Shown here in pieces: positions 2,607-49,188 of a DNA stretch of 64,000 nt. The DNA is taken from positions 10,140,501 through 10,204,500 of the forward strand of contig NZ_AP018448.1 of NCBI RefSeq assembly GCF_030294945.1, in the 5' to 3' direction. The notes beneath the pieces are model-generated. The model ran no database searches. It had not been told where the DNA came from and was given only the letters and a program-made list of their open reading frames with translations. Both the position numbers and the translations under genes were made by a program. This DNA comes from Streptomyces graminofaciens (GTDB lineage: Bacteria > Actinomycetota > Actinomycetes > Streptomycetales > Streptomycetaceae). Position 1 is the stretch's first letter. Each line of letters begins with the position of its first letter.

Positions 2607-2629
2607 ACCATACGGCCCGCCACTGACAG
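2607..2629 (-). promoter_or_regulatory. PafBC-type (RecA-independent damage) promoter of the RecB-like nuclease
   Basis: On the minus strand CTGTCAGTG is followed by exactly 8 bases and TATGGT. The published mycobacterial consensus is tTGTCRgtg-N8-TAnnnT, so 8 of 9 upstream bases match, with exact spacing and a correct -10. The start codon is 8 bases downstream. Binding by PafBC is inferred. Confidence 0.7.
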
Positions 2630-2789
2630 TGACAGCCACGGGTCCGTTCGACGGTGGTACGCCTGTGACGCGAGGGAGATCAGAGGGGGTGCCGGGGCGG
2701 AACGTGACAGGACGACCGCATAGCATCGACCACAGACCCTTCCGCCCGCCCCCACCGGGCGCGGAAGACGCTTCGAACGAGGGGACATC

Positions 2790-4772
2790 GTGGACGAGAG
2801 CGGCGGGAGCGGGCAGCCGCGGTCCGACAGCGACGAGGCGCCCGAGCGCGCGCACCGCGACGTGACCGGGACACCGACGGAGGCTGGCGCCGCCGACCCC
2901 GCCTCCACCCCTGCCGCACCCCACCGCGAGGAGCCCGCTCCCGTATCCGACGGCGACTCTCACGGGGCGACGCGGCGCCCTGGGACCGCGCAGGGCGCCG
3001 AGGAGGCGCAGAGCAACAGCTCCGAGGACGCGCGGGAACCCACGAACTCGAACCCCGACACGGGCTCCGGGAACCCGGGGCACTCCGAGCCGCCGACCAA
3101 CTCCGAGCCGTCGGCAAGCTCGAGGCCGCCGGCCCCCTTCGGTCCGCCGACAAGCTCCGAGTCGCCTGAGAGTGCCGGGCCCTCGACGCCCCCGAAGGCT
3201 CCCGCGACCCCCGAGCCCTCGGCCGGCCCCGAATCCCGGACGCAGCCCGCGCCCACCGCGGTGAGCCCCGAGACCACGATGAAGTTCAGGTTGCCGGCGA
3301 AGCCGAACCCGTCCGCGAGTGCCGAGCCGTCGCCGGACTCCGAGTCCTCGGCGAAGCCCGAGCCCGCGGCGAGCCCCGAAGCCACCATGAACCTGGAGCT
3401 GCCGACGAAGGCCAAGCCGTCGCCGAGCACCGAGCCTCCCGCGGGCCCCGCGTCCTCGACGGGCCCGGCGCCCACGACGAACCCCACCCCCACCAACCCG
3501 AAGTCCGAGATCACGACGAACCTCAGGAAGCCGGAGCCGACGGACAAGTCGGAGCACACGGACACCTCCGCGCGCCCCCACGCCCACTCCGGCGCCCCCA
3601 AGCCGCCGAAGCGCCCGAAGGAGCCCGGCGGTGGCATCCTCATGGGCCGCCCCTTCGGCGTACCCGTGTACGTGGCCCCCAGCTGGTTCCTCGTCGCCGC
3701 CCTGATCACCTGGGTCTTCGGCGGCCAGCTGGACCGCGTCCTGCCGGAGCTCGGCGCCGCCCGCTACCTGGTCTCCCTCTTCTTCGCGGTCGCCTTCTAC
3801 GCCTCGGTCCTCGTCCACGAACTCGCGCACACGGTCGCCGCCCTGCGCTTCAAGCTGCCGGTGCGCCGGATCCAGCTGCAGTTCTTCGGCGGGGTCTCGG
3901 AGATCGAGAAGGAGTCGGAGACCCCGGGCCGAGAGTTCGTGCTGGCCTTCGTCGGCCCCCTGCTCTCACTGATCCTCGCCGGCGTCTTCTACCTCGCCCT
4001 CCAGGGCGTCGAGCCGGCCACCGTCCCCGGCGTCCTGCTGGCCGGCCTGATGATCTCCAACCTGATCGTGGCCGCGTTCAACCTGCTGCCCGGACTGCCC
4101 CTCGACGGCGGCCGGATGCTTCGCGCCGTCGTCTGGAAGATCACCGGCAAGCCGATGAGCGGCACGATCGCCGCCGCCTGGGTCGGCCGCGCCCTCGCCG
4201 TCTCCGTCCTTATCGGGCTGCCGCTGCTCACCCAGTCGGGACTGCTCGGCGCCGCCGCCGAGGACAGCGTCGGCATGGACACCGTCATGGACGCCCTGCT
4301 GGCCGCGATCCTCGCCGCGATCATCTGGACCGGCGCCGGCAACAGCCTCCGCATGGCCCGGCTGCGCGAACACCTGCCCGAACTGCGCGCCCGCACCCTC
4401 ACCCGCCGCGCGGTCCCCGTGGAGACCGACACCCCGCTCTCCGAGGCCCTGCGCCGCGCCAACGACGCCGGCGCCCGCGCCCTGGTCGTCGTCGACCCCG
4501 AGGGCGAGCCCCTGTCGCTGGTCCGCGAGGCCGCCATCGTCGGCGTACCCGAGCACCGCCGCCCCTGGGTCGCCGTCAGCGGCCTCGCCCAGGACCTCAC
4601 CGACGGCATGCGCGTCTCCGTCGAACTGGCCGGCGAAGAGCTCCTCGACGCCCTCCGCGCCACCCCGGCCACCGAGTACCTGGTGGTGGAGGACTCCGGC
4701 GAGATCTACGGCGTCCTCTCGGCGGCAGACGTGGAGCGCGCGTTCGTGAAGGCCATGGCCCGCCCCAGCTGA
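2790..4772 (+). CDS. site-2 protease family membrane metalloprotease (M50) with CBS region
   Basis: A 660-residue protein from GTG 2790. Residues 1-280 are a Pro/Ser/Glu/Thr-rich disordered tail with three degenerate repeats of the form TMxxxLPxKxxPS. The membrane protease follows: zinc motif HELAH at 343-347, PGLPLDGGR with the third zinc ligand near Asp439, and several hydrophobic segments from about 300 to 520. Residues 540-655 look like a CBS pair. Such proteases cut substrates within the membrane, often anti-sigma factors. An in-frame ATG at 3642 would give a 376-residue protein of ordinary family length. I prefer 2790 because the frame keeps strong Streptomyces codon bias throughout, but the start is open. 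It diverges from the nuclease gene. Substrate unknown. Confidence 0.85.
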   Translation: MDESGGSGQPRSDSDEAPERAHRDVTGTPTEAGAADPASTPAAPHREEPAPVSDGDSHGATRRPGTAQGAEEAQSNSSEDAREPTNSNPDTGSGNPGHSEPPTNSEPSASSRPPAPFGPPTSSESPESAGPSTPPKAPATPEPSAGPESRTQPAPTAVSPETTMKFRLPAKPNPSASAEPSPDSESSAKPEPAASPEATMNLELPTKAKPSPSTEPPAGPASSTGPAPTTNPTPTNPKSEITTNLRKPEPTDKSEHTDTSARPHAHSGAPKPPKRPKEPGGGILMGRPFGVPVYVAPSWFLVAALITWVFGGQLDRVLPELGAARYLVSLFFAVAFYASVLVHELAHTVAALRFKLPVRRIQLQFFGGVSEIEKESETPGREFVLAFVGPLLSLILAGVFYLALQGVEPATVPGVLLAGLMISNLIVAAFNLLPGLPLDGGRMLRAVVWKITGKPMSGTIAAAWVGRALAVSVLIGLPLLTQSGLLGAAAEDSVGMDTVMDALLAAILAAIIWTGAGNSLRMARLREHLPELRARTLTRRAVPVETDTPLSEALRRANDAGARALVVVDPEGEPLSLVREAAIVGVPEHRRPWVAVSGLAQDLTDGMRVSVELAGEELLDALRATPATEYLVVEDSGEIYGVLSAADVERAFVKAMARPS

Positions 4773-4838
4773 AACACCCGCGGTGCTCGGCGCTTTCCCG
4801 TGGTCGGCGCTCCCTCCGGGGACCGGTAGGCTGTTCAC

Positions 4839-5741
4839 ATGTCCGAACCGACCGGTGCCGCCCGCCGTCGCGGGCCCTTCAAGGTCGGGGACCAGGTCCA
4901 GCTCACCGACCCCAAGGGACGCCACTACACGTTCACGCTCGAAGAGGGAAAGAACTTCCACACCCACAAGGGTTCCTTTCCTCACGACGAGCTGATCGGT
5001 GCGCCCGAGGGCAGTGTTGTCCGCACCACGGGGAACGTCGCCTACCTGGCGCTGCGCCCCCTGCTCCCCGACTACGTCCTGTCCATGCCCCGCGGCGCCG
5101 CCGTGGTCTACCCCAAGGACGCGGGGCAGATCCTCGCCTTCGCCGACATCTTCCCCGGCGCCCGCGTCGTCGAGGCCGGCGTCGGCTCCGGCTCGCTCAG
5201 CAGCTTCCTGCTGCGCGCCATCGGCGACCAGGGCATGCTGCACAGCTACGAGCGCCGCGCCGACTTCGCCGAGATCGCACAGGCCAACGTGGAGCGCTAC
5301 TTCGGTGGCCCGCACCCCGCCTGGCAGCTCACCGTCGGTGACCTCCAGGACAACCTGAGCGACACCGAGGTCGACCGGGTCATCCTCGACATGCTCGCCC
5401 CCTGGGAGTGCCTGGAGGCCGTCTCCAAGGCCCTCGTCCCCGGCGGCATCGTCTGCTGCTACGTGGCGACCACCACCCAGCTCGCCCGGACCGTCGAGTC
5501 CATCCGCGAGATCGGCTGCTTCAACGAGCCGAGCGCCTGGGAGTCGATGATCCGCAACTGGCACATCGAGGGCCTGGCCGTCCGCCCGGACCACCGGATG
5601 ATCGGCCACACCGGCTTCCTGCTCACCGCCCGCCGCCTCGCGGACGGCGTCGAGCCGCCCATGCGCCGCCGCCGCCCCGCGAAGGGCGCGTACGGCGAGG
5701 ACTACGAGGGCCCCAACGCCGACGGCGGCGCCGGGCGCTGA
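4839..5741 (+). CDS. trmI: tRNA (adenine-58-N1)-methyltransferase, TrmI type
   Basis: A 300-residue SAM-dependent methyltransferase. An N-terminal beta domain (FKVGDQVQLTDPKGRHYTF) precedes the Rossmann fold, with a glycine-rich SAM loop in VVEAGVGSGSLSSFLLRAIG and the acidic catalytic strand VDRVILDMLAPWE. This matches the archaeal/actinobacterial TrmI family that makes m1A58 in the tRNA T-loop. A TAGGCT -10 box (4827-4832) lies only 6 bases before the ATG and no Shine-Dalgarno is visible, so the mRNA is probably leaderless. It lies downstream of the M50 protease gene, on the same strand. The C-terminal 20 residues are Gly/Asp-rich and probably disordered. Confidence 0.92.
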   Translation: MSEPTGAARRRGPFKVGDQVQLTDPKGRHYTFTLEEGKNFHTHKGSFPHDELIGAPEGSVVRTTGNVAYLALRPLLPDYVLSMPRGAAVVYPKDAGQILAFADIFPGARVVEAGVGSGSLSSFLLRAIGDQGMLHSYERRADFAEIAQANVERYFGGPHPAWQLTVGDLQDNLSDTEVDRVILDMLAPWECLEAVSKALVPGGIVCCYVATTTQLARTVESIREIGCFNEPSAWESMIRNWHIEGLAVRPDHRMIGHTGFLLTARRLADGVEPPMRRRRPAKGAYGEDYEGPNADGGAGR

Positions 5742-5815
5742 GCCGCACCCCACCCCGCACCTCCCCGGCACCTCTTCCAGTGGGCGGCCCTGTGCCGCGT
5801 ACAACGTGCCCTTGA

Positions 5816-5855
5816 CGTGGCCGAGTTCCCCGCAGCGCCCGGGAACTCGGCCACG
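5816..5855 (+). terminator. terminator after trmI
   Basis: A perfect 15-bp stem (5816-5830 with 5841-5855) and a 10-base loop lie 75 bases after the trmI stop, before the gene for a secreted protein. Confidence 0.8.
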
Positions 5856-5983
5856 GCGCTTATCCGTTGGCGCGCCACCGGAACGCCGTGCGAACCCCGT
5901 ACCCCGCCGTTCCGCACTCACCGTGACGTGTGGCAGCATGCGGGTCACCTCAACCGGCACAGCCCTCTCAGGAGACGCTCCTA

Positions 5984-6559
5984 GTGCAGCAATCCGCCGT
6001 CCCGGAACTGGCACACGCGCACCCCCACCCGATCCACTGGGTCGCCACGGCCACCGCCCTAGCCGGTGTCGTGGCCCTGTCGTCGGCCCTGCAACCGGAC
6101 GCGGCGAGAGCCGCCCAGCCGGGCCCGGAGGCCAAGCCCGCCCCGGTGACGGTGACGGCCCCCGACCCCGCGGACGTGAAGTTCCCCCTCGACTGCGGAC
6201 CCGTCGGCATCGTCGTCAAGAAGAAGGTCTCGGGAGACCTCGACGGCGACGGCAGCCCGGAGACGGTGGCCGCCGTGCACTGTGACGCCAGCATGGGCAC
6301 CCCGCCCGACGGCGTGTACGTCCTCACCCTGGGCACGGCCGACGCGAAACCGCGCGTGGTCGCCACCCTCGTGAACCCCAAGGACCGCGAGACGGTCTCG
6401 GACCTCGCCGTCCGTGACGCCGAGGTCACCGCGACCGTCCACGGCTACTCCTCGGCCGACGTACCGAATTGCTGCCCGGACGTGACGGATCCCGTCAAGT
6501 GGCAGTGGAAGAGCGGGAAGTTCCTGCGCTCCAAGCAGGCCGGGGAGCAAAACGTCTGA
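5984..6559 (+). CDS. secreted or membrane-anchored protein of unknown function
   Basis: A 191-residue protein from GTG 5984, chosen because GGAG lies 10 bases upstream; a longer in-frame start at 5930 lacks such a site. Residues 18-43 form a hydrophobic segment ending in DAARA-A, which looks like a signal peptide or an N-terminal anchor. The rest is soluble, with a DLDGDGSPETVAAVHC segment resembling calcium-binding DxDxDG loops, and a late cysteine pair in VPNCCPDVT. No enzyme family was recognised. It is flanked by a terminator and a convergent ferredoxin gene, so it is likely transcribed alone. Confidence 0.7.
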   Translation: MQQSAVPELAHAHPHPIHWVATATALAGVVALSSALQPDAARAAQPGPEAKPAPVTVTAPDPADVKFPLDCGPVGIVVKKKVSGDLDGDGSPETVAAVHCDASMGTPPDGVYVLTLGTADAKPRVVATLVNPKDRETVSDLAVRDAEVTATVHGYSSADVPNCCPDVTDPVKWQWKSGKFLRSKQAGEQNV

Positions 6560-6651
6560 CAAGCCGCCGAACAGGACATGATCACACGGTAAACACGGTG
6601 TGAGAAAGCAGACACGGGGTGACGTGGAGTGCTGGGGAGGTCACTCCGAGA

Positions 6652-6957
6652 TCACTCCGCGCCGGGTCCGTAGACCTCGACGCTGTCCGAAACGCGACGT
6701 ACATGGATGCACTCGCCGGGACACTCCTTCACGGAGTCCACGACATCGGTGAGAAGCGTCAGTGGCACGGGCGTTGTGGCCCCGGGGGCCTGCAACAACT
6801 CGTCCTCGGGGCTCTTGACGTAGGCCAGCCCGTCGATGTCCAGCTCGAACACCTCGGGGGCGTACTGGGCGCAGATGCCGTCGCCGGTGCACAGGTCCTG
6901 GTCGATCCAGACCTCGAGCGCCTCGCCCTGGACTCCGGCCTCGTGCTGCACGGTCAT
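6652..6957 (-). CDS. small ferredoxin
   Basis: A 101-residue ferredoxin. The N-terminal CTGDGICAQYAPEVFEL and C-terminal KECPGECIHV are the two cysteine segments of the actinobacterial 3Fe-4S (or 3Fe-4S/4Fe-4S) type that feeds electrons to P450s and other oxygenases. The normal second cysteine of CxxCxxC is replaced (CTGDGIC), which favours a 3Fe-4S cluster. It diverges from arc at the edge of the proteasome locus. The nearest candidate redox partner in the window is the CYP157-type P450 30 kb away, which is only a guess. Confidence 0.88.
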   Translation of the reverse strand: MTVQHEAGVQGEALEVWIDQDLCTGDGICAQYAPEVFELDIDGLAYVKSPEDELLQAPGATTPVPLTLLTDVVDSVKECPGECIHVRRVSDSVEVYGPGAE

Positions 6958-7136
6958 CTCTCCTGCCGTTTCTCTCGTCGAGCCGGTCGGGAACGATGCA
7001 GGCTCTGACGGGTGTTGAACACTTCGACCCTACCTGGGGCGGCTTCCCAATCATGTTCGGTGGGTATTCCCCTGGCGTGAGGGAGAGCGCAAGGGTGAAG
7101 ATCGGACACACCCCGACCGTCTTTGTGATCTAGGGG

Positions 7137-7164
7137 TTTCAATCGACACCCACCCAGGTAGGGT
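7137..7164 (+). promoter_or_regulatory. putative arc promoter
   Basis: TTTCAA, 16 bases, then TAGGGT lie 38 bases upstream of the arc GTG. The -10 with its downstream bases (TAGGGTCTG) is identical to that of the pup promoter, but no TGTC element is present here. Confidence 0.4.
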
Positions 7165-7202
7165 CTGGAAGCGTCCAGCTCCCCTTGGAGGAGGTGAGGA
7201 CC

Positions 7203-10810: not shown

Positions 10811-10833
10811 ATGTCAGACCCGGCTTGTAGGGT
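10811..10833 (+). promoter_or_regulatory. pup-prcBA promoter, partial PafBC-type match with overlapping inverted repeat
   Basis: ATGTCAGAC, exactly 8 bases, then TAGGGT. The TGTCAG core, spacing and -10 fit tTGTCRgtg-N8-TAnnnT, but the three bases around the core do not (6 of 9). An 8-bp inverted repeat, TCAGACCC-N8-GGGTCTGA (10814-10837), overlaps the core and the -10, so another regulator could compete here. The pup ATG is 62 bases past the -10, leaving a real leader. Confidence 0.5.
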
Positions 10834-10895
10834 CTGATCATGACCGATCGGCAGCAATGCCGACCATGTCGGGCGAACTGAGCGGGGTGAGGGTG

Positions 10896-11114
10896 ATGGC
10901 GACCAAGGACACCGGCGGTGGGCAGCAGAAGGCCACGCGTTCCACCGAGGAGGTCGAGGAGCAGGCGCCCGAGGCGCAGGCGAGCGAGGACCTCAAGGAG
11001 CGCCACGAGAAGCTGTCGGACGACGTGGACTCCGTACTGGACGAGATCGACGACGTCCTCGAGGAGAACGCCGAGGACTTCGTGCGTTCCTTCGTCCAAA
11101 AGGGCGGCGAGTAG
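10896..11114 (+). CDS. pup: prokaryotic ubiquitin-like protein Pup
   Basis: A 72-residue, acidic, disordered tag. The helical region around LKERHEKLSDDVDSVLDEID binds the ARC coiled coil, and the C-terminus is FVQKGGE. PafA links the terminal Glu side-chain carboxylate to substrate lysines. Because the gene already encodes Glu rather than Gln, deamidation by Dop is not required. ATG 10896 is preceded by a GTGAGGG ribosome site; longer in-frame starts upstream would overlap the promoter motif and are rejected. It stands ahead of prcB and prcA. Confidence 0.97.
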   Translation: MATKDTGGGQQKATRSTEEVEEQAPEAQASEDLKERHEKLSDDVDSVLDEIDDVLEENAEDFVRSFVQKGGE

Positions 11115-18522: not shown

Positions 18523-19476
18523 ATGGCCATTGCCAAGGCCGAGCGGTTGATGAACCTGGCGCTGTGTCTGCTGGGAACGCGCCGGCCGCTCAGCAAGCGC
18601 GAGCTGCGAGAGTCCATCGAGGCCTATCTCGAAGCCGGTAGCGACGACTCCTTCAACCGCATGTTCGAGCGCGACAAGGACGATCTGCGCGAACTCGGGC
18701 TCGTGATCGCGACTGTTGAGAACCTCGACGGCGAAGTCGGCTATCTGGCCCGCCGCGACAGCAACAGCCTCCCGCCCATCACGCTCGACGCCGAGGAGGC
18801 GGCGGCCCTCGGCCTGGCCGCCAAGGTCTGGCAGCAGGCCCGCCTCGCCGGAGCCGCGAGCGGCGCCCTGCAGAAGCTGCGCGCGGCCGGCCTCCCCGAG
18901 GACGTCGACCCGTACGAGGCCCATGGCGCCCTGGAGCCGCGCATCCCGGTGCACGAGGCCGCCTTCGAACCGCTGATGCTGGCCTGCCGCGACCGCCGCC
19001 CCGTCGTGTTCGAGTACCGCAAGGCCACCGCCGCCCGCCCCGAGCCCCGCCATGTCGAGCCGTGGGCCCTCGAATGCTGGCGCGGCCACTGGTACCTCGC
19101 GGGCTGGGACCGCGACCGGGGCGCCGAGCGCGTCTTCCGGCTCTCGCGGATCACCGGCAAGGTCCGCAGCCGGGGCGCCGCCTTCACCGCCGAGATCCCG
19201 GACGTCGTCACCGTGCGCGAGACCGTCGCGAGCTGGGCGGGCGAGACCGCCGACCGCTCCGCGCTGATCCGGCTGCGCGCGGACGCCGGCTACCCGCTGC
19301 GGGCCCGCGCCACCGCCGTACGGGAACTGGGCGACGGCTGGGACGAGTTGGAGATTCCGTACGGGCACGGTCTGGACGCCTGGTTGGTCGAGTTCGGGCC
19401 CGACGTGGTGGTCCTCGGGCCCGCCGAGCTGAAGGCCGATGTCGTGGACCGGCTGCGCGCCGTGGCCAAGGGCTGA
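18523..19476 (+). CDS. pafB: PafB, WYL-domain transcriptional activator subunit
   Basis: A 317-residue protein with an N-terminal winged helix (AERLMNLALCLLGTRRPLSK) and a WYL domain from about residue 145, including HWYLAGWDRDRGAERVFRL. In mycobacteria PafB and PafC form a heterodimer that activates the RecA/LexA-independent DNA damage response at promoters with a TGTC element and a TANNNT -10. Several promoters in this window carry that motif. pafC starts 15 bases downstream. Confidence 0.92.
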   Translation: MAIAKAERLMNLALCLLGTRRPLSKRELRESIEAYLEAGSDDSFNRMFERDKDDLRELGLVIATVENLDGEVGYLARRDSNSLPPITLDAEEAAALGLAAKVWQQARLAGAASGALQKLRAAGLPEDVDPYEAHGALEPRIPVHEAAFEPLMLACRDRRPVVFEYRKATAARPEPRHVEPWALECWRGHWYLAGWDRDRGAERVFRLSRITGKVRSRGAAFTAEIPDVVTVRETVASWAGETADRSALIRLRADAGYPLRARATAVRELGDGWDELEIPYGHGLDAWLVEFGPDVVVLGPAELKADVVDRLRAVAKG

Positions 19477-19491
19477 GGGGGACGTAAGAAA

Positions 19492-20499
19492 GTGGTGGGA
19501 AAGCCGGCCAGGCCCGTCAACGCCATCGACCAGACCCGGCGGATGCTCTCCCTGGTGACGTATCTGCGCGAGCGCCCCGGCGCGCGCATCGAGGACGTCG
19601 CCCGGGCCTTCGGGATCACCGAGGACGAACTGGTCTCCGACCTCGATCTGCTGCCCATGTGCGGGACCAGCTTCCGCGGCGGCGATCTGCTCGACATCGA
19701 CACCGACGGCGAGCGGATCTGGTGGCACAACCCGGCCGCCCTCGGCGCGGAGGCCGCCGAGCCGCTGCGGCTGGCCGCCGACGAGGCCACCGCCCTGCTG
19801 GTGGCGGCCCGCGCCGTGGCCACGCTGCCCGGGCTGCGCGAGAGCGACCGCCAGGCACTGCTACGGGCCACCGCCAAGGTCGAGACGGCCGCCGGCGAGG
19901 CGGCGGGCGCCAGCGCGCGCCTGTCGGTGACCTTCGAGTCCGAGGGCGGGGTCTTCGCCGACGTCGACCGGGCCATCTCGGAGCGCCGGCGTCTGTGGAT
20001 CCGCTACTACTCGCCCGCCCGCGACGAGGTCACCGAACGCGAGATCGACCCGATCCGCCTGGTCAGCGTCGGTCACACCTATGTCGAGGCCTGGTGCCGC
20101 CGCTCCGAGGCGCGCCGCACGTTCCGGCTCGACCGGGTCGCCGAGATCAAGATCCTCGACGAGCCGTCCGCGCCGCCCGAGATCGAGCTGCGGGACCTGT
20201 CGGAGGCGCTGGTGCAGCCCGCCGCCGAGGACCCGGAGGTCGTCGTCGAGGTCGGCCCCGGCGGCCGCTGGGTCGCCGAGTACTACCCGCACGACAGCGC
20301 CGAGGAACTGCCGGACGGCGGGCTGAGCATCACCCTGCGCACCCCCGACCCCGCCTCGCTGCGGCGGCTCGCGCTGCGGCTCGGGCGCGACGGCCGGATC
20401 GTCTCGCCGCAGGACCTCGCGGACAGTGCCCGGCGGGCGGCCCGGGAGGCGCTGGCGGCCTACGACGAGGCCGCGACCACGGCGTACGACGGGCCGTAG
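19492..20499 (+). CDS. pafC: PafC, WYL-domain transcriptional activator subunit
   Basis: A 335-residue partner of PafB from GTG 19492. The N-terminal helix-turn-helix includes RRMLSLVTYLRERPGARIED; the middle WYL domain includes RRLWIRYYSPARDEVTEREI and TYVEAWCRRSEARRTFRLDR. The Tyr-Val-Glu in place of the Trp-Tyr-Leu core is normal for PafC. A C-terminal extension with alternating beta segments follows. It is translated right after pafB. A zinc-ribbon protein gene follows 85 bases later. Confidence 0.92.
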   Translation: MVGKPARPVNAIDQTRRMLSLVTYLRERPGARIEDVARAFGITEDELVSDLDLLPMCGTSFRGGDLLDIDTDGERIWWHNPAALGAEAAEPLRLAADEATALLVAARAVATLPGLRESDRQALLRATAKVETAAGEAAGASARLSVTFESEGGVFADVDRAISERRRLWIRYYSPARDEVTEREIDPIRLVSVGHTYVEAWCRRSEARRTFRLDRVAEIKILDEPSAPPEIELRDLSEALVQPAAEDPEVVVEVGPGGRWVAEYYPHDSAEELPDGGLSITLRTPDPASLRRLALRLGRDGRIVSPQDLADSARRAAREALAAYDEAATTAYDGP

Positions 20500-22655: not shown

Positions 22656-22842
22656 CGCACACCACCGCCGGGTCGGTACGCGGCCGGGGCGCCCACAAGG
22701 CGTGCCCGGCCGTTCGTGCGTCACGGGGCGACGACTGTGGCGTGAAATGTGTGCCACCGGCCACGGCCGGGTAGAGATCCAGGTCCCTGAGCTGCGGTGA
22801 TCCTCAGGTGCGCGAGTACCGATCCGGATAATGATCGTCCTG

Positions 22843-22865
22843 TTGTCAGTGGGGGCCGGTAGTCT
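22843..22865 (+). promoter_or_regulatory. PafBC-type promoter of helY (full consensus match)
   Basis: TTGTCAGTG, exactly 8 bases (GGGGCCGG), then TAGTCT. All 9 upstream bases, the spacing and the -10 agree with tTGTCRgtg-N8-TAnnnT. The helY ATG lies 10 bases further and has no Shine-Dalgarno. This is the best match in the window. Confidence 0.8.
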
Positions 22866-22875
22866 CGAAAGCACG

Positions 22876-25680
22876 ATGACAGAGGACCTCTCACCGGCCG
22901 AGCGGTATGCGGCTGCCCGCAGGCGCGCCGCCGAGCAGGCCACCGCGCTCGCCTCCTTCCGCGAGATGTACGACTTCGGTCTGGACCCCTTCCAGATCGA
23001 GGCCTGCAAGGCGCTGGAGGCGGGCAAGGGCGTGCTGGTCGCCGCTCCCACCGGCTCCGGCAAGACGATCGTCGGCGAGTTCGCCGTCCACCTCGCCCTC
23101 CAGCAGGGCAAGAAGTGCTTCTACACGACACCCATCAAGGCGCTGTCCAACCAGAAGTACGCCGACCTGTGCCGCCGTTACGGCGCGGACAAGGTCGGCC
23201 TGCTCACCGGCGACAACAGCGTCAACTCCGACGCCCCGGTGGTCATCATGACCACCGAGGTCCTGCGGAACATGCTGTACGCGGGCTCGCAGACCCTGCT
23301 GGGTCTCGGCCATGTGGTCATGGACGAGGTGCACTACCTCTCCGACCGCTTCCGGGGCGCGGTGTGGGAAGAGGTGATCATCCATCTCCCCGAGTCGGTC
23401 ACGCTCGTCTCGCTGTCCGCGACCGTGTCCAACGCCGAGGAGTTCGGTGACTGGCTCGACACCGTCCGCGGCGACACCCAGGTGATCGTCTCCGAGCACC
23501 GGCCCGTGCCGCTGTTCCAGCACGTGCTCGCCGGGCGCCGGATGTACGACCTCTTCGAGGAGGGCGAGGGCAACAAGAAGGCCGTCAATCCCGACCTCAC
23601 GCGTATGGCGCGCATGGAGGCCAGCCGCCCCTCGTTCCAGGACCGCAGACGCGGCCGCTCCATGCGCGAGGCCGACCGGGAGCGCGAGCGCAGACAGCGC
23701 TCCCGCATCTGGATCCCGAGCCGCCCCGAGGTCATCGAACGGCTCGACTCCGAGGGCCTGTTGCCCGCCATCACCTTCATCTTCAGCCGCGCCGCCTGCG
23801 AGGCCGCCGTCCAGCAGTGCCTGTACGCGGGGCTTCGGCTGAACGACGACGACGCCCGGCTCAGAGTGCGCGCCCTGGTCGAGGAGCGCACGGCCTCGAT
23901 CCCGAACGAGGACCTCCATGTCCTCGGCTACTACGAGTGGCTGGAAGGCCTGGAGCGCGGTATCGCGGCCCACCACGCGGGCATGCTGCCGACGTTCAAG
24001 GAGGTCGTCGAGGAGCTGTTCGTGCGCGGGCTGGTGAAGGCCGTGTTCGCGACGGAGACGCTTGCCCTGGGCATCAACATGCCCGCCCGCTCGGTGGTGT
24101 TGGAGAAGCTCGTCAAGTGGAACGGCGAGCAGCACGCCGACATCACACCGGGCGAGTACACCCAGCTGACGGGGCGTGCGGGACGGCGCGGCATCGATGT
24201 CGAGGGCCATGCGGTGGTGCTGTGGCAGCGCGGTATGAACCCCGACCACCTCGCCGGACTCGCGGGCACGCGGACGTATCCACTGCGCTCCAGCTTCAAG
24301 CCCTCGTACAACATGGCGGTGAACCTGGTCGAGCAGTTCGGCCGGCACCGTTCGCGTGAGCTGCTGGAGACGTCGTTCGCGCAGTTCCAGGCGGACAAGT
24401 CGGTCGTAGGGATCTCCCGGCAGGTGCAGCGCAACGAGGAGGGGCTCGACGGCTACAAGGAGTCAATGACCTGCCACCTCGGCGACTTCGAGGAGTACGC
24501 GCGCCTGCGGCGTGAGCTGAAGGACCGCGAGACCGATCTGGCCAAGCAGGGCGCGGCCCAGCGCCGGGCCGAGGCGGCCGTGGCGCTGGAGAAGCTGAAG
24601 CCGGGGGATGTCATCCATGTGCCGACCGGCAAGTACGCCGGTCTGGCTCTGGTGTTGGACCCCGGGCTGCCCGCCGGGCGGTCCAACGGCCACCGGGGAT
24701 TCGAGCAGCACGACGGGCCGCGGCCGCTGGTGCTGACCGCCGAGCGGCAGGTCAAGCGGCTGGCGTCCATGGACTTTCCGGTGCCGGTCGAGGCGCTGGA
24801 CCGGATGCGGATCCCGAAGTCCTTCAATCCGCGGTCGCCGCAGTCGCGGCGGGATCTGGCGTCCGCTCTGCGTACCAAGGCCGGGCATCTCGTGCCCGAC
24901 CGGCACCGCAAGCGGCGGGCCGCGGCGGCCGACGACCGTGAGATCGCCCGGCTGCGGGCCGAGCTGCGGGCTCATCCGTGCCATGGGTGCGACGAGCGTG
25001 AGGACCACGCGCGTTGGGCCGAGCGCTACTACCGGCTCAAGCGGGACACCGCGCAGTTGGAGCGGCGGATCGAGGGGCGCACGAACACGATCGCGCGGAC
25101 CTTCGATCGGATCGTCGCGCTGTTGACCGAGCTGGACTACCTGCGGGGTGACGAGGTCACCGAGCACGGGAAGCGGCTCGCGCGGCTGTACGGCGAGTTG
25201 GATCTGCTGGCGAGTGAGTGCCTGCGGGCCGGGGTCTGGGAAGGGCTGGGACCCGCGGAGCTTGCCGCGTGTGTTTCCGCACTGGTGTACGAGGCGCGGG
25301 TCAGTGACGACGCGATGGCGCCGAAGCTGCCGTCGGGGCAGGCCAAGGCCGCGCTGGGCGAGATGGTGCGGATCTGGGGGCGGCTCGACGCGCTGGAGGA
25401 GGAGTTCCGGATCACCCAGAGCGAGGGGGTCGGGCAGCGCGAGCCGGACCTCGGCTTCGCCTGGGCCGCGTACATGTGGGCCTCCGGGAAGGGCCTCGAC
25501 GAGGTGCTGCGGGAGGTGGAGATGCCGGCCGGGGACTTTGTGCGGTGGTGCAAGCAGGTGATCGATGTGCTGGGGCAGATCTCGGCGGCGGCGCCTGTGG
25601 GGTCCAGTGTGGGGAAGAACGCGCGTAAGGCTGTGGAGGGGTTGTTGCGGGGGGTTGTGGCCTACTCCTCGGTGGGGTGA
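22876..25680 (+). CDS. helY: Ski2-like DEAD/DEAH-box helicase HelY
   Basis: A 934-residue superfamily 2 helicase. Motif I APTGSGKT is at 57-64, motif II DEVH near 153, motif III LSATVSN, and motif VI QLTGRAGRRG near 435. A C-terminal half with coiled-coil and helical domains is typical of the Ski2/Mtr4-like actinobacterial HelY group. Mycobacterial helY also neighbours tatC. The role is probably RNA or DNA unwinding. ATG 22876 is preferred over an in-frame ATG at 22831, because the latter lies upstream of the promoter motif. Confidence 0.93.
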   Translation: MTEDLSPAERYAAARRRAAEQATALASFREMYDFGLDPFQIEACKALEAGKGVLVAAPTGSGKTIVGEFAVHLALQQGKKCFYTTPIKALSNQKYADLCRRYGADKVGLLTGDNSVNSDAPVVIMTTEVLRNMLYAGSQTLLGLGHVVMDEVHYLSDRFRGAVWEEVIIHLPESVTLVSLSATVSNAEEFGDWLDTVRGDTQVIVSEHRPVPLFQHVLAGRRMYDLFEEGEGNKKAVNPDLTRMARMEASRPSFQDRRRGRSMREADRERERRQRSRIWIPSRPEVIERLDSEGLLPAITFIFSRAACEAAVQQCLYAGLRLNDDDARLRVRALVEERTASIPNEDLHVLGYYEWLEGLERGIAAHHAGMLPTFKEVVEELFVRGLVKAVFATETLALGINMPARSVVLEKLVKWNGEQHADITPGEYTQLTGRAGRRGIDVEGHAVVLWQRGMNPDHLAGLAGTRTYPLRSSFKPSYNMAVNLVEQFGRHRSRELLETSFAQFQADKSVVGISRQVQRNEEGLDGYKESMTCHLGDFEEYARLRRELKDRETDLAKQGAAQRRAEAAVALEKLKPGDVIHVPTGKYAGLALVLDPGLPAGRSNGHRGFEQHDGPRPLVLTAERQVKRLASMDFPVPVEALDRMRIPKSFNPRSPQSRRDLASALRTKAGHLVPDRHRKRRAAAADDREIARLRAELRAHPCHGCDEREDHARWAERYYRLKRDTAQLERRIEGRTNTIARTFDRIVALLTELDYLRGDEVTEHGKRLARLYGELDLLASECLRAGVWEGLGPAELAACVSALVYEARVSDDAMAPKLPSGQAKAALGEMVRIWGRLDALEEEFRITQSEGVGQREPDLGFAWAAYMWASGKGLDEVLREVEMPAGDFVRWCKQVIDVLGQISAAAPVGSSVGKNARKAVEGLLRGVVAYSSVG

Positions 25681-38841: not shown

Positions 38842-39786
38842 CTACGCGGCCCACTCGTCGTACGACGACCAGGCCCGTAGCACCCGCGGGCTGACGAACC
38901 GGTGCTCGCGCCCCGTGATCGGATCGGTGAACTCCAGCATCCGCGCCAGCAGTTGGAGCGGACGTCGGAAGTCACCGGCCGCCACGGGGCCGGTCACCAC
39001 CGGGTAGAGGGGATCGCCGAGGATCGGCACACCCAAGGAGCTCATGTGCACCCTCAGCTGGTGCGTCTGCCCGGTCATTGGCATCAGCCGGTACTGGCCA
39101 AGCCCATTCCGGTGCTCCAGCAGCTCGACCCGGCTAACGGCGTTGGGCGGCTCGCCCTCGACCTCGCGGGCCGCCATGACTCCGCGCTCCTTGACGATCC
39201 GGCTGCGTACGGTGCAGGGCAGGGCCAGTGCGGGGTCGTACGGGGCCACAGCCTCGTACTCCTTCGCCACCTGCCTGTCGCGGAACAGCGACTGGTACGC
39301 GCCGCGCTCTTCGGGGCGCACGGTGAGCAGCACCAGCCCAGCCGTCAGCCGGTCCAGCCGGTGCGCCGCGCTCAGCGTCGGGATGCCCAGTTCCCGCCGC
39401 AGCCGCGCCAGGGTCGTCTCGGCGACATGGCTGCCACGCGGGGTGGTGGCCAGGAAGTGCGGCTTGTCGGCCACCACCAGGTGCTCGTCCCGGTAGAGGA
39501 CGTCGACCGAGAACGGCACCTGCTCCTCATCGGGCAGTTCCCGGTGGAACCACAAGAACATCCCCGGCGCGTACGCCATGTCCCTGGACACCGGGCACCC
39601 GGCGGCGTCCACGATCAGTCCCGTGTCGAGCATCCTGTCGATCACTCCGGCCCCAGCCGCGAGCCGCGCCACGAGATGGTCCCGCACGGTCGCCCACGTG
39701 TCGTCGGCCGGCAACCGCAGCCGCACCGGATCCACCCCGTCGTGTTGCGGCAGGGGAGAGGGCGGGGGCGGCGTACGGCGTCTCAT
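38842..39786 (-). CDS. RluA-family RNA pseudouridine synthase
   Basis: A 314-residue enzyme. The catalytic Asp is in AAHRLDRLTAGL; further family segments are VADKPHFLATTPRGSHVAET and MTGQTHQLRVHMSSLGVPIL. It isomerises uridine in rRNA or tRNA; the exact site is unknown. It is convergent with the P450 gene, 18 bases apart. The ATG at 39786 sits 7 bases after TAGGCT, so the transcript should be leaderless, and the promoter carries the damage-type motif. An upstream in-frame GTG (39810) lies inside that promoter and is rejected. Confidence 0.9.
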   Translation of the reverse strand: MRRRTPPPPSPLPQHDGVDPVRLRLPADDTWATVRDHLVARLAAGAGVIDRMLDTGLIVDAAGCPVSRDMAYAPGMFLWFHRELPDEEQVPFSVDVLYRDEHLVVADKPHFLATTPRGSHVAETTLARLRRELGIPTLSAAHRLDRLTAGLVLLTVRPEERGAYQSLFRDRQVAKEYEAVAPYDPALALPCTVRSRIVKERGVMAAREVEGEPPNAVSRVELLEHRNGLGQYRLMPMTGQTHQLRVHMSSLGVPILGDPLYPVVTGPVAAGDFRRPLQLLARMLEFTDPITGREHRFVSPRVLRAWSSYDEWAA

Positions 39787-39793: not shown

Positions 39794-39816
39794 AGCCTAC
39801 GAGAGGGCACTGACAG
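39794..39816 (-). promoter_or_regulatory. PafBC-type promoter of the RluA-like gene
   Basis: On the minus strand CTGTCAGTG, 8 bases, TAGGCT. The upstream element is identical to that of the RecB-like nuclease gene (8 of 9 consensus), with exact spacing and -10. The start codon follows after 7 bases. Confidence 0.7.
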
Positions 39817-44546: not shown

Positions 44547-45347
44547 ATGAATGACGCATCGGCGTCCTACCGTTTGGTCCCGGGAGCGCCGGACTCCCCT
44601 GTGATCCTGCACGTCCCGCACGGTTCGCGGGTGATCCCGGCGGACGTACGCGCCGGGATTCTCCTCGATGACCCCGCGCTGGAACGGGAGTTGGACCACA
44701 TCACCGACGCGTACACGGACCGGATCGCCGAGGAGGCCGCCGAGCGGTCGGCCACGCGGCCCTGGAGATTCGTCAACCAGCTGTCACGTCTGGTCGTCGA
44801 CCCGGAGAGGTTCCCTGACGAACGCGAGGAGATGCTGGCCGTCGGCATGGGGGCGGTCTACACCCGGACCACGCACCGGGAGGACCTCCGTCCCGCCGAC
44901 CACGACGGCCGACCGCTTGTCCGGCGCTACTTCCACCCGTACGCGGCGGCCATGACCGACGCGGTGGCGGAGCGGCTGGCGGCCGTGGGGCGGGCCGTGG
45001 TCGTCGATGTGCACTCGTACCCCACCGAGCGACTGCCCTACGAACTCCACGGCAAGGGCCCCCGCCCGCCCGTCTGCCTCGGCCACGACCCCTTCCACAC
45101 CCCGGCCGAGCTGCTGGCCCGCGCCGAGAAGGCGTTCGCCGGCTTCGGCGGCACCGGCGTCAACAGCCCTTTCGCGGGCGCGTACGTCCCGATGAGGTAC
45201 TACGGGAATGACGCTCGCGTGAGCGCCCTGATGATCGAGATCCGCCGGGACGTCTATATGACCGAGCCGGGCGGCCCGGCGGGCCCCGGTGTCGGCACAC
45301 TCGCCAAGGCGCTGGCCGAGCTGGTCGATGAGGTCACCGCCGTCTGA
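44547..45347 (+). CDS. N-formylglutamate amidohydrolase family protein
   Basis: A 266-residue hydrolase. VILHVPHGSRVIPADVR carries the His of the zinc site, VNQLSRLVVDPERFPDE the acid/Arg region, and VVVDVHSYPTERLPYE the second His. The family removes formyl groups from N-formylglutamate (histidine breakdown) or related N-acyl amino acids; no hut genes are nearby. It diverges from the permease. Its initiation region is a tandem duplication: an 11-codon frame starting at ATG 44522 has its own GAGGAAC site and ends overlapping this ATG, so coupling is possible. An in-frame ATG at 44526 is less likely. Confidence 0.85.
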   Translation: MNDASASYRLVPGAPDSPVILHVPHGSRVIPADVRAGILLDDPALERELDHITDAYTDRIAEEAAERSATRPWRFVNQLSRLVVDPERFPDEREEMLAVGMGAVYTRTTHREDLRPADHDGRPLVRRYFHPYAAAMTDAVAERLAAVGRAVVVDVHSYPTERLPYELHGKGPRPPVCLGHDPFHTPAELLARAEKAFAGFGGTGVNSPFAGAYVPMRYYGNDARVSALMIEIRRDVYMTEPGGPAGPGVGTLAKALAELVDEVTAV

Positions 45348-45437
45348 CGCCACGAAGAACCGTGCGTGCGCTCAGCCCCGTCTGGACTGCCGTCTGACAC
45401 CACGAAGAACCTTGCGCTCAGCCCCGCCTGAACGTCC
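45341..45437. repeat. imperfect 50-bp tandem duplication at convergent gene ends
   Basis: CGTCTGACGCCACGAAGAAC (45341) recurs as CGTCTGACACCACGAAGAAC (45391), and both copies continue with GCGCTCAGCCCCG-like text. The unit contains the stop of the upstream gene in copy 1 and the stop of the opposite-strand gene in copy 2. Confidence 0.7.
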
Positions 45438-47028
45438 CAAGCCCGTTCTTGTCGAATGCCTCGATCGTCACCTGGGTGGCCTTGCCGTTTCCGTCGCCGC
45501 GGAAGGTGACGCCCGACGGGCCGGTGGCGTTCTCGCCGACCGTCTCGAAGAAGAAGGTGTCGCCGTCGTAGTGGGTCAGGCGGAACCGCGTGGGCTTCGG
45601 GCCCAGGGCCATGGTCAGTTCGCCGTCGGACTCGGTGACGGTGAGGGGGCCGTAGTAGGAGTTGCGGTACGTGCCCGTGTAGGCGGAGTCGGCGCGCGGG
45701 TCGGCGGCGTCGCCCGGGGGCTCGGTGTAGTCGGTGGGGGAGCGCTCCGCCGCGTCGGTCTGCGCGTAGACCTTGCCGATCAGGGCCAGCCAGTCCGTGG
45801 TCGGCATGCCGTGCTGGGCCGTGTCGATGAAGTCGGCCGCGATGGCGTCCGCGAGTCCGATCGGCTCGCCGTTGGTGAGGACGACGATGCCGAGCTGTTC
45901 GCCGGGCAGCATCGTGACGTTGGTGTGCGCGCCGAGCGCGAAGGCGCCGGAGTGGCTGAGGCGCAGGCGGCCGAGGTCGTCGTAGCTCACGTTCCAGCCC
46001 AGGCCGTAGAAGCCCGCGCGGCCAGCCGGGGCGGGCGGCGGCTGGGAGACGACCTCGGGGAGGTGGGTGCGCTCCAGCGGGTCGGCGGCGATGATCCGGT
46101 CACCGCCGAGCTTGCCGTCGGCGAGCTGCAGGCGCAGCCAGAGCGACATGTCGCGGACCGTGGAGCTGGCGCCGCCCGCCGGGGACTGGGCGTCGGGGTC
46201 GCGGACGTACTTGGCCTCCCAGGTGCCGTCGGCGGCGCGGACGTGGGTGACGGCCTTGTTCTCGGCGTTCTCGTAGTCGCTGAAGCGGGAGCTGGTGGCG
46301 TCCATGCCGGCCGGCTTGTAGAGGAGGTCCTCGGACAGCTTCTCCCAGCTCGTCCCGGCCGCGTCGGCGACGGCCTCGCCCGCCGCCGTGACACCGAAGT
46401 TGGTGTACGCGTAGCTCGCCCGGAACGGCGACAGGGGCTCCAGGCGCAGGTGCCGGAAGATGTACTCCTGGTCGTAGCCCAGGTCCTCCAGGAGGTCACC
46501 GGCGTGGTCCGGCAGCCCGCTGCGGTGCGCGAACAGGTCGGCCACGGTGGCGTGTTCGGTGACCCAGCGGTCCTTGAGGGCGAAGTCCGGGAGGAGCTCG
46601 GCGACTTCGTCGTTCCAGGCGACGACCTTGTCGCCGACGGCCCCGGCGACGACCGTCGAGGCCAACGGCTTGGACAGGGAGGCGAGTTGGAAGACCGTGT
46701 CCGGTCCGACCTGGGCGTCCTTGCCGACCTGCCGCTTGCCGAAGCCGTCGATGCGCACGACCTTGTCCTTGTGGACCACGGCGACCGCGACCCCCGGGAC
46801 TCCGGTGCGCTCCATCCCGCGCTCCACGATGGAGTCGAGCGACTCGGCGGCCTTGTCGACGTCGTCCCGCGTGAGCTGGGGAGGCGGCTGGGGTGGGGGA
46901 TCGGCGGCGGGCGCCGCGCCCGCGCCGACGGAGGCACTGCCAAGGAAGAGGAGCGAGGCCAGGCCCGTGGCGACCCGTGTCCTGCTTCCGCGGTGTGTCC
47001 TTGTGCGCCGAACACCCATGTACACCAT
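45418..47028 (-). CDS. secreted class C beta-lactamase-like serine hydrolase
   Basis: A 536-residue protein with a signal peptide (ATGLASLLFLGSASVGAGAA). The beta-lactamase/transpeptidase fold has the SxxK motif in FQLASLSKPLAS, the Tyr in YAYTNFG (YxN) and HSG in LRLSHSGAFALG. A C-terminal lipocalin-like domain (from about 430) with YTGTYRNSYYGPLTV follows. Such proteins are often D-aminopeptidases or esterases rather than true beta-lactamases. The start is uncertain between 47028 and 47019; neither has a clear ribosome site. Confidence 0.9.
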   Translation of the reverse strand: MVYMGVRRTRTHRGSRTRVATGLASLLFLGSASVGAGAAPAADPPPQPPPQLTRDDVDKAAESLDSIVERGMERTGVPGVAVAVVHKDKVVRIDGFGKRQVGKDAQVGPDTVFQLASLSKPLASTVVAGAVGDKVVAWNDEVAELLPDFALKDRWVTEHATVADLFAHRSGLPDHAGDLLEDLGYDQEYIFRHLRLEPLSPFRASYAYTNFGVTAAGEAVADAAGTSWEKLSEDLLYKPAGMDATSSRFSDYENAENKAVTHVRAADGTWEAKYVRDPDAQSPAGGASSTVRDMSLWLRLQLADGKLGGDRIIAADPLERTHLPEVVSQPPPAPAGRAGFYGLGWNVSYDDLGRLRLSHSGAFALGAHTNVTMLPGEQLGIVVLTNGEPIGLADAIAADFIDTAQHGMPTTDWLALIGKVYAQTDAAERSPTDYTEPPGDAADPRADSAYTGTYRNSYYGPLTVTESDGELTMALGPKPTRFRLTHYDGDTFFFETVGENATGPSGVTFRGDGNGKATQVTIEAFDKNGLGTFRRG

Positions 47029-47156
47029 TGAAGCCGGTGGGGTGGGCTTTGTCCTGCGGGGCGGTCGTGGGGCCCGGTGCGGACCGCCGGGTGTCCCCGC
47101 GCGTCCGCCGGGATCACCCGCGCGTCCGCCGGATGCCCCCGCCAGGCCCTGGGGGT

Positions 47157-48002
47157 CTATGCCGTCGTCGGCGTGCCCTCCTGCTCGGCCTCCACGCGTG
47201 CGTTCCACGCCTGCTTGGTCGCCTGCCAGCCGTCCTCGTTGTGCCCGAGGCGCCAGTAGCCGGAGATCGAGATGTCCTCGCGCGGAACGGCACGCTCGAC
47301 GCGCAGCAGCTGGCGCAGTTCCTTCACGAAGCCTGCTTCGCCGTGCACGAACGCGTGCAGCCGGCCCGCCGGGAACTCCATCGCGCGTACGGCCTCGACC
47401 AGTGCCGCGCCGATCGGCCGGTCGCCGCGGTGCAGCCAGATCACCTCCGCATCGGAGTTGATCTTCTGCTCCTCCTCGGGGCCGGAGACCTCGACGATCG
47501 CGACGGCCCGGGCGCCGTCGGGCAACGCCTCCAGGGACGCGCCGATCGCGGGCAGGGCGCTCTCGTCGCCGACGAGCAGATGCCAGTCGGCGGTCGGATC
47601 GGGGGCGTAGGCGCCGCCGGGGCCCACGAAGCGGACGAGGTCGCCCGGCTGGACCCGTGTTGCCCACGGGCCGGCGAGGCCCTCGTCGCCGTGCAGGACG
47701 AAGTCGATGGTCAGCTCGCGCAGTTCGGTGTCCCAGGCACGCACGGTGTACGTCCGGGTCACCGGCCATTGGTCCCGGGGGAACTCGGCGCGGATCCGCT
47801 CCATGTCGAAGGGCTCCGGGTACGTGACACCCTCGGCGCCGAAGAGCAGCTTCACATAGTGGTCGGTGCTGCCCCGCGTGGCGAACTCGGCGAGACCGTC
47901 GCCACCGATCACGACGCGCTGCATGTGCGGCGTCAGCCGTTCGGTGCGGACGACTCGAGCGGAGTGGGGCTTCGGTGTCCTGCGTCCCGGGCGCTCTGCC
48001 AT
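47157..48002 (-). CDS. siderophore-interacting protein (FAD-dependent ferric reductase)
   Basis: A 281-residue SIP-family flavoprotein. The FAD site RTYTVRAWDTELRELTIDF is preceded by DHYVKLLF, and the C-terminal half has LLVGDESALPAIGASLEALP and the tail ISGYWRLGHNEDGWQATKQA. It reduces ferric siderophores in the cytosol to release iron. An iron box lies just upstream, so it should be derepressed when iron is scarce. Confidence 0.94.
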   Translation of the reverse strand: MAERPGRRTPKPHSARVVRTERLTPHMQRVVIGGDGLAEFATRGSTDHYVKLLFGAEGVTYPEPFDMERIRAEFPRDQWPVTRTYTVRAWDTELRELTIDFVLHGDEGLAGPWATRVQPGDLVRFVGPGGAYAPDPTADWHLLVGDESALPAIGASLEALPDGARAVAIVEVSGPEEEQKINSDAEVIWLHRGDRPIGAALVEAVRAMEFPAGRLHAFVHGEAGFVKELRQLLRVERAVPREDISISGYWRLGHNEDGWQATKQAWNARVEAEQEGTPTTA

Positions 48003-48019
48003 GACGGCCTCCCAAATAT

Positions 48020-48038
48020 CTTGCTAAGGCTTACCTAA
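48020..48038 (-). promoter_or_regulatory. iron box (DmdR1/IdeR/DtxR type)
   Basis: On the minus strand TTAGGTAAGCCTTAGCAAG matches 13 of 19 positions of TTAGGTTAGGCTAACCTAA and lies 17 bases before the siderophore-interacting protein start. Confidence 0.7.
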
Positions 48039-48228
48039 GTTAGCATCTCCCCCTGGTTCACACCTCATGCTTGAGGACTCAACGAGAACTTCGTGGTGTG
48101 AGACGCGCCTCATTGGACTCACAACCGAAGTGTCGCCCACCCCCGGCGTACGCCCCGCCCATGGGGCGCACGCCCCCATATCTACAGCCCTCTACAGCCC
48201 TCTATAGCCATCTACATCTAACGGCTGT

Positions 48229-49158
48229 CTACGGCGTCGTCACCTGAAGCGTCGTGAGTAGCCGCTGCAGTGATCCCCCGAGGCCCCAACGGGCCGCGAG
48301 TGCCTCCAGCACGGCTGGATCCCGCGGGTCGCGCGGAAGCGCCGTGTCGACGTCCGGCAAGGGTACGTCTCCCGCGACCCGTACGACCCCCCTCGCGACC
48401 GAGACATAGGGCCGCGCCTCGTCGAGCCGCTTGCGCTGGGCCGGGGTGAGCTTCGCCGACGGGTCGTCGACCGCGGCCATGATCCCCGCCAGGTCGCCGA
48501 ACTGGTCCAGCAGCTTCGCGGCCGTCTTCTCGCCGATGCCGGGCACCCCGGGCAGGCCGTCGCTCGGATCGCCGCGCAGCAGCGCGAGATCCGCGTAACC
48601 CGCGCCGTCCACACCGTACTTCTCGCGCAGCCACGCCTCGTCGGTGAGCTGCAGTGTGCCCACGCCCTTGAGTGGATACAGCACGCGCACCCCGCGCCCG
48701 TCGTCGACCAGCTGGTACAGATCGCGGTCGCCGGTGACGATGTCGACCGGGTCCTTCGCACGGGCCGTGAACGTGCCGATCACGTCGTCCGCCTCGTACC
48801 CCTCGACGCCCACGCGCGCGATGCCCAGCGCGTCCAGCACGGCCTCGATGATCGGCACCTGCGGTGACAGCGTGTCCGGCACCTCCTCCTCGTCCGGGCC
48901 CACCTCGTGCTCCTCGGCCACACGGTGCGCCTTGTAGGACGGGATCAGGTCGACCCGCCACTGCGGCCGCCAGTCCGCGTCCATGCAGGCCACCAGGTCG
49001 GTCGGCCGGTGGTCCTTGACCAGGCGGTCGATGAAGTCGAGCAGCCCGCGCACGGCGTTCACCGGGGTGCCGTCCGGGGCCTTCACGGAGTCCGGCACTC
49101 CGAAATAGGCGCGGAAGTACAGCGAGGCGGTGTCGAGAAGCATCAGGCGTCGGGTCAC
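48229..49158 (-). CDS. 5'-3' exonuclease (Pol I-like FEN family)
   Basis: A 309-residue nuclease like the N-terminal domain of DNA polymerase I: MLLDTASLYFRAYFG, the acidic cluster in VEGYEADDVIGTF and TGDRDLYQL, then the helix-hairpin-helix GLPGVPGIGEKTAAKLLDQF. It probably trims 5' flaps or ends in repair, in addition to PolA. The start GTG 49158 (VTRRLMLL) is preferred over upstream in-frame codons because a damage-type promoter ends 7 bases before it, fitting a leaderless transcript; starts at 49170 or 49188 would lie inside that promoter. Confidence 0.9.
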   Translation of the reverse strand: MTRRLMLLDTASLYFRAYFGVPDSVKAPDGTPVNAVRGLLDFIDRLVKDHRPTDLVACMDADWRPQWRVDLIPSYKAHRVAEEHEVGPDEEEVPDTLSPQVPIIEAVLDALGIARVGVEGYEADDVIGTFTARAKDPVDIVTGDRDLYQLVDDGRGVRVLYPLKGVGTLQLTDEAWLREKYGVDGAGYADLALLRGDPSDGLPGVPGIGEKTAAKLLDQFGDLAGIMAAVDDPSAKLTPAQRKRLDEARPYVSVARGVVRVAGDVPLPDVDTALPRDPRDPAVLEALAARWGLGGSLQRLLTTLQVTTP

Positions 49159-49165
49159 GCCCCGC

Positions 49166-49188
49166 ATCATGCCGTACACCACTGACAC
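49166..49188 (-). promoter_or_regulatory. near-match PafBC-type promoter of the exonuclease gene
   Basis: On the minus strand GTGTCAGTG, 8 bases, CATGAT. The upstream element matches 8 of 9 with correct spacing; the -10 has C in place of T at its first base. Distance to the GTG start is 7 bases. Confidence 0.5.

Follow-up and report, generated by a model that had tools for sequence, protein, structure and literature searches.

Does the DNA around pafB and pafC in Streptomyces graminofaciens hold a DNA-damage regulon of its own, or a share of a promoter set that extends over the whole genome? The window considered here is a 64,000-nucleotide stretch of this organism (NZ_AP018448.1, positions 10,140,501 to 10,204,500 of the forward strand), which encodes both proteins together with pup-prcBA. 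Its first-pass annotation described a PafBC-type mini-regulon around the Pup-proteasome locus, composed of five sites that resemble TGTCRGTG-N8-TANNNT, an upstream element and a -10 element at fixed spacing. We find that the site set is a genome-wide RecA-NDp/PafBC-class set and not a mini-regulon. To the fuller reading, in which the sites are genome-wide DNA-damage promoters of the RecA-NDp class in Streptomyces and are read by PafBC, we assign a probability of roughly 0.8.

Across the whole 11.6-Mb genome, the exact pattern TGTCAGTG-N8-TANNNT occurs at 54 sites and its reversal at none. A genome scan with fixed N8 spacing had been suggested along with the annotation and was run here as an exact pattern; spacers of N7 and N9 gave no site, apart from one reversed match for N9. 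When one mismatch is allowed, there are 167 sites versus 19 for the reversed pattern. A T directly precedes the upstream element in 33 of the 54 exact sites (the form tTGTCRgtg). The window contributes three of the 54, and the other 51 lie outside it. In sequence, spacing, position and target genes, the sites fit the RecA-NDp/PafBC promoter class, as had been proposed; the class is known in kind.

Start codons often lie close behind these sites. At 27 of the 54 sites of this genome, the last T of the -10 element is followed by an ATG at 6-10 nt; 38 shifted windows gave 2.2 on average and 7 at most. With GTG included, the count is 37 of 54 versus a mean of 7.5 and a maximum of 15. Of the 27 ATGs, 21 open a frame of at least 90 codons. 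In 101 Streptomyces genomes, an ATG occupies the 6-10 nt interval at 1480 of 3403 sites (43%) versus 142 of 3403 (4%) at the 16-20 nt control, and the excess is present in each of the 101. This excess provides independent support that the sites are promoters in use. PMC8079986 gives an average distance of 6.3 nt from the -10 element to the transcription start, and puts the leaderless share of transcripts at 17% for S. lividans and 21% for S. coelicolor. Many targets look leaderless, and from the sequence we predict that, for about half of the promoter class, the A of the AUG would be the first transcribed base. TGTCAGTG would then extend from about -29 to -21, close to the -26 motif that the helix-turn-helix domain of PafB contacts. 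No link of this promoter class to leaderless starts was found in the literature searched, as judged partly by titles and listings. At one site (L003), the leaderless ATG after the -10 element opens a 10-codon open reading frame ahead of a DUF4132 gene.

Sixteen replication, repair or damage-response genes are served by 17 of the 54 sites, a raw count taken without a background gene set. Targets include recA (two sites), uvrA, uvrB, uvrD, mfd, ruvC, radA, dnaX and ung; rpsF, which by eye is followed by an ssb-like gene; genes for an O6-methylguanine methyltransferase, an AlkZ-like glycosylase and a YoaA/DinG-like helicase; and helY and the PD-(D/E)XK nuclease gene of the window. Proteins were scanned at 40 of the 51 non-window sites. 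The Mfd and YoaA matches fall below the NCBIfam cut-offs, and the end of the locus truncates both proteins. A further target (L009) is a macrodomain protein that matches chain 5e3b (E 5e-86), which we take to be SCO6735; L009 and SCO6735 are likely orthologs. The two recA sites are exact, lie on the same strand and are 168 bp apart (L012/L013, G000:C1:4332546 and 4332714).

The candidate reader is present. PafB and PafC of the window match chains AY and AX of 7p5x, respectively, and the PafB residues R181, Y196, R204 and R208, tested for binding of single-stranded DNA in Mycobacterium smegmatis (PMC11804915), are all four kept, as R176, Y191, R199 and R203. Identity to M. smegmatis PafB over residues 40-62 is 14 of 23. 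The same paper describes PafB of M. smegmatis as reading the -26 motif and single-stranded DNA as activating PafBC. Known targets point in the same direction: PMC5656591 lists the 5'-3' exonuclease MSMEG_3883 with a lowered level when pafBC is mutated, and PMC8151990 lists overexpression of rv2119 in a recA mutant given mitomycin C. By family and position, both are probably counterparts of window genes, Rv2119 being that of the window nuclease. We infer from the sequence that PafBC controls the Streptomyces sites. In the proposed mechanism, the WYL domain of PafB would sense single-stranded DNA, and PafBC would associate at these promoters with RNA polymerase that carries the housekeeping sigma factor (sigma adaptation), turning the target genes on, mostly without LexA. 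Many targets would be made as leaderless mRNAs if transcription starts at the ATG. LexA-type boxes occur near 20 of the 54 sites versus 76 of 216 control segments and are not enriched, and an exact GAAC-N4-GTTC lies near one of the 54; overlap with LexA was therefore rejected as an explanation of the site set.

Within the window, a pattern scan recovered the three exact sites annotated before the RecB-like nuclease gene, helY and an RluA-type gene, in both position and spacing. It also recovered the -10 change before the exonuclease gene, which is the single one-mismatch site in the window, and the partial site before pup, at two mismatches. All five sites are oriented toward a gene, as had been described, at a distance of 7-10 nt from the last T of the -10 element to the start codon, except at pup (62 nt), and Pfam matches agree with the identities given to the nuclease, HelY, RluA-type enzyme, 5'-3' exonuclease and Pup. 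When up to two mismatches are allowed, the window holds 19 matches versus 9.09 expected, and 19 was reached by 1 of 100 shuffles. The features are listed below; for three genes, the Pfam scans used slightly longer mechanical open reading frames (helY 22831-25680, RluA to 39810, exonuclease to 49188).

Table. Promoter sites and genes of the window; distances run from the last T of the -10 element to the start codon.
Feature	Position	Strand	Evidence
RecA-NDp/PafBC-class promoter, RecB-like nuclease	2607..2628	-	Exact; TGTCAGTG-N8-TATGGT, ATG at 8 nt
PD-(D/E)XK (RecB-like) nuclease	1678..2598	-	PF12705 E 5.4e-41
Variant site before pup-prcBA	10812..10833	+	TGTCAGAC-N8-TAGGGT; leadered, ATG at 62 nt
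pup	10896..11114	+	PF05639 E 4.6e-31
pafB, proposed reader of the upstream element and sensor of single-stranded DNA	18523..19476	+	PF13280 WYL, PF25583 WCX; 7p5x_AY E 9.3e-56
pafC	19492..20499	+	PF19187 HTH_PafC E 1.9e-27; 7p5x_AX E 1.1e-51
RecA-NDp/PafBC-class promoter, helY	22844..22865	+	Exact; TGTCAGTG-N8-TAGTCT, ATG at 10 nt
HelY-type DEAD/DSHCT helicase	22876..25680	+	PF08148 E 6.2e-42, PF00270 E 9.1e-26
RluA-family pseudouridine synthase	38842..39786	-	PF00849 E 9.4e-19; TIGR00005 E 2.9e-33, below cut-off
Exact motif before RluA-type gene	39794..39815	-	ATG at 7 nt; not conserved
5'-3' exonuclease	48229..49158	-	PF02739 E 5.4e-46, PF01367 E 5.7e-20
Variant site, 5'-3' exonuclease	49166..49187	-	TGTCAGTG-N8-CATGAT, GTG at 7 nt

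Conservation of the annotated sites was found for the nuclease, helY, exonuclease and pup, the last two in the forms CANNAT (-10) and TGTCRGAC (upstream element), and not for the RluA-type gene. The helY site is exact in 58 of 80 Streptomyces loci and has at most one mismatch in 75 of 80, and the best site lies 9-10 nt from the ATG in all 80; these loci are the best of at least 591 candidates and lean to close relatives. In the helY spacer, the first half is most variable; conservation of the second half and of the flank of the -10 element is similar to that of the motif, whose fifth base in several loci is R and not A. At the nuclease gene, 8 of 11 Streptomyces relatives have the exact site, one has it with one mismatch, and two are without it. 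For the exonuclease, GTG at 7 nt and CANNAT are kept in 4 of 4 relatives and TGTCRGTG in 3 of 4; as a separate observation, of the 113 one-mismatch sites in this genome 46 were listed, and in 12 of these CANNNT replaces TANNNT, as it does at the window exonuclease. The RluA site is present in 1 of 29 relatives, there with one mismatch, the 29 being the best-scoring loci from 40 other genomes. The nuclease promoter has a relative in family f3, which we infer to be the mycobacteria: in 6 of 6 genomes, TTGTCGG-N10-TAGGCT or TAGGGT is followed 6 nt on by a start codon (ATG in four, GTG in two) that opens the nuclease frame of 226-302 codons. In three f3 loci (G074, G616 and G648), pafB has a GTG 7 nt after TAAGCT and is without a good upstream element, and from this arrangement pafBC itself may be leaderless there.

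Some evidence does favour a mini-regulon kept together at pafBC by selection, since three exact sites in one pre-chosen 64-kb window have a Poisson P of 0.0035, and the nuclease gene, with its related promoter, lies 16-33 kb from pafC in 6 of 6 f3 genomes as well. Windows of 64 kb with at least three exact sites make up 1.2% of this genome, however, and the densest, with five, is at uvrA/uvrB, so that clustering at pafBC is weak. In addition, the RluA site is not conserved, and helY and the exonuclease gene lie near pafC in the six f3 genomes but have no good site there (best 3-4 mismatches). The annotated mini-regulon is too narrow a description when 51 of the 54 sites lie elsewhere; it is largely refuted by the genome-wide count, was ruled out by that count together with the cluster test, and is in our estimate highly improbable.

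A different objection concerns the reader. The promoter class could be a real DNA-damage class and yet be served by another PafC/WYL-type regulator or by a dedicated sigma factor; each of 28 sampled Streptomyces genomes has 3-11 HTH_PafC matches, and most genomes of the class outside Streptomyces have far fewer copies of the strict motif. Set against this, the motif, its spacing and its distance to the predicted start match the -26 element of M. smegmatis PafB as PMC11804915 presents it, the PafB residues that sense single-stranded DNA are kept, and the targets resemble mycobacterial kinds (recA, 5'-3' exonuclease, RecB-like nuclease). We consider another reader unlikely. Hardly credible at all is a set of constitutive housekeeping promoters with an upstream element in common, leaderless genes merely having a constrained -10 element. 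PMC8079986 does describe TAnnnT as the general Streptomyces -10 element, best kept at leaderless genes, but that would not account for a pattern that falls from 54 sites to none with N7 or N9, nor for the many repair genes among the targets, nor for the ultraviolet inducibility of SCO6735, reported in PMC5087735.

Several observations weigh against PafBC-read DNA-damage promoters as well. Many scanned targets lack a plain link to repair, among them rimO, coaE, ABC and MFS transporters, an AraC regulator, an ECF sigma factor, TerD, SUKH-4, DUF4132, DUF4253 and more; the repair share is a raw count, and the scan of non-window targets covers all but 11 sites (L004, L010, the second recA site, L015, L016, L019, L022, L026, L028, L030 and L037). 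The start sites are predicted, and 6 of the 27 leaderless ATGs open just 10-82 codons. The N-terminal part of PafB is identical to that of M. smegmatis at 30 of 62 positions, and neither binding nor expression nor mutant results on Streptomyces PafBC were found in the literature searched. In S. venezuelae, recA and ruvC, and perhaps uvrA, are LexA targets, and the same 2022 paper mentions an initial search by which the PafBC motif of M. smegmatis seemed not to be conserved in that species (PMC9380542). Finally, the strict motif is abundant mainly in Streptomyces despite HTH_PafC being found in 287 of 296 genomes of the class sample. With PafC near-universal in the class, its presence is no predictor of motif number, and the distribution is no test of PafBC control.

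Within Streptomyces itself, the motif is general. Exact sites occur in 101 of 101 sampled Streptomyces genomes, with a total of 3403, a minimum of 8, a median of 32 and a maximum of 72. In a phylum sample of 396 genomes, 12 of 12 Streptomyces genomes have 13-57 exact sites; in the class sample of 296, 28 of 28 have 12-67, with four reversed matches in all, and the other 268 have mostly 0-5 and some up to 33. A further 24 genomes, hand-picked from the 80 best helY loci (all named Streptomyces), all have sites (5-63). High counts outside Streptomyces are partly due to a repeated element in family f91: the motif is found inside repeated elements, as TGTCAGTGCCCGCCCGTAGGGT many times in f91 genomes and as TGTCAGTGGCCTCGGCTAGGTT several times in one other genome (G766). 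In family f3, the strict TGTCAGTG form is rare, with 0-5 exact sites per sampled genome.

The site before pup-prcBA departs from the strict pattern by its two mismatches to TGTCRGTG-N8-TANNNT, and it has its own conserved form. TGTCRGAC-N8-TAGGGT is exact in 9 of 11 Streptomyces relatives, has one mismatch in another and is absent from the last, with the start codon 36-69 nt after the -10 element. Among the six pup loci of f3, best matches to the TGTCRGAC form carry 3-6 mismatches, and one locus has a two-mismatch match to the general pattern. A leaderless 13-codon open reading frame before pup (10840-10881) was rejected as a conserved feature, its ATG not being kept in the 11 relatives, although it is present in G666.

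Upstream elements of this kind are found at other genes. TGTCAG plus a non-T base with a leaderless ATG has matches in 30 of 31 genomes, and the first 51 matches listed include 22 with TGTCAGAC, 15 with TGTCAGCG and six with TGTCAGAG. Twenty variant-form loci (L440-L459) were hand-picked by eye for a check of their targets; 11 precede repair-type genes, eight precede other genes and one precedes a 28-codon open reading frame. Exodeoxyribonuclease III genes have TGTCAGAC in two genomes and TGTCAGTG in two, DEDDh exonuclease genes have TGTCAGAC, TGTCAGTG and TGTCAGAG in three genomes, and TGTCAGAC also precedes sbcD (two) and recD2 (one), with one representative of each of the four scanned. One AlkZ-like gene with the AC form matches by eye the AlkZ-like target L024, which has TG. 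The AC form (TGTCAGAC) appears from these swaps to belong to the promoter class. Because TGTCAGTG, TGTCAGAC and TGTCAGAG replace one another at orthologous repair genes, the conserved pup-prcBA site is a plausible member, and on its sequence it may belong to the class. If it does, damage signalling and pupylation would be linked at a promoter in Streptomyces. A tentative extension, against which we see somewhat greater odds, is that the PafBC-type response of Streptomyces is larger than assumed and largely leaderless, with pup-prcBA as a member via TGTCRGAC. Under genotoxic stress, repair proteins could then be produced with no need for a ribosome-binding leader, and the signal that induces them would also raise the machine that may later remove them.

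The PafBC regulon of M. smegmatis and M. tuberculosis is alike in its TGTCRGTG-like element, N8 spacing and TANNNT, in having recA and other repair genes as targets, in the position of pafB-pafC beside pafA and the proteasome genes, and in the PafB residues that sense single-stranded DNA. It differs in number, with the 0-5 strict sites per f3 genome set against 8-72 in Streptomyces, and in the six f3 loci that are without a good helY, exonuclease or pup site. Leaderless geometry in f3 was checked at the nuclease promoter alone and found in 6 of 6. That the RecA-NDp class reaches beyond mycobacteria is noted in a review (PMC8223512), and Streptomyces examples were already published for S. rimosus recA in 2002 and S. 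coelicolor SCO6735 in 2016, the latter a gene that has a RecA-NDp promoter and is induced by ultraviolet light (PMC5087735). Both are of the same class and genus, and the 54 sites include those of recA (L012) and of the macrodomain gene (L009); whereas those reports, as PMC5087735 sets them out, treat single genes, the present set is genome-wide and adds leaderless geometry and variant forms. The LexA/SOS regulon of S. venezuelae (PMC9380542) shares recA, ruvC and perhaps uvrA, and differs in its box, tCGAAC-N4-GNNCGa, which is not enriched near the 54 sites. That paper leaves the pathway in S. venezuelae open. Our counts point the opposite way for the genus, S. venezuelae not having been picked by name. 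Now that the motif has been located in all 101 sampled Streptomyces genomes and its targets and predicted starts are listed, the question of the PafBC motif becomes directly testable. The extent of the class in Streptomyces, its leaderless link and the possible membership of pup were not found in the literature searched, as judged from listings.

Two minor observations concern phages. In a scan of viral contigs, the leaderless pattern matched at least 120 stretches and its reversal likewise at least 120. In the genome itself, a gene for a pPIWI_RE-associated REase, of phage-defence type, lies behind an exact site (L006:239-1492), with its GTG 8 nt on.

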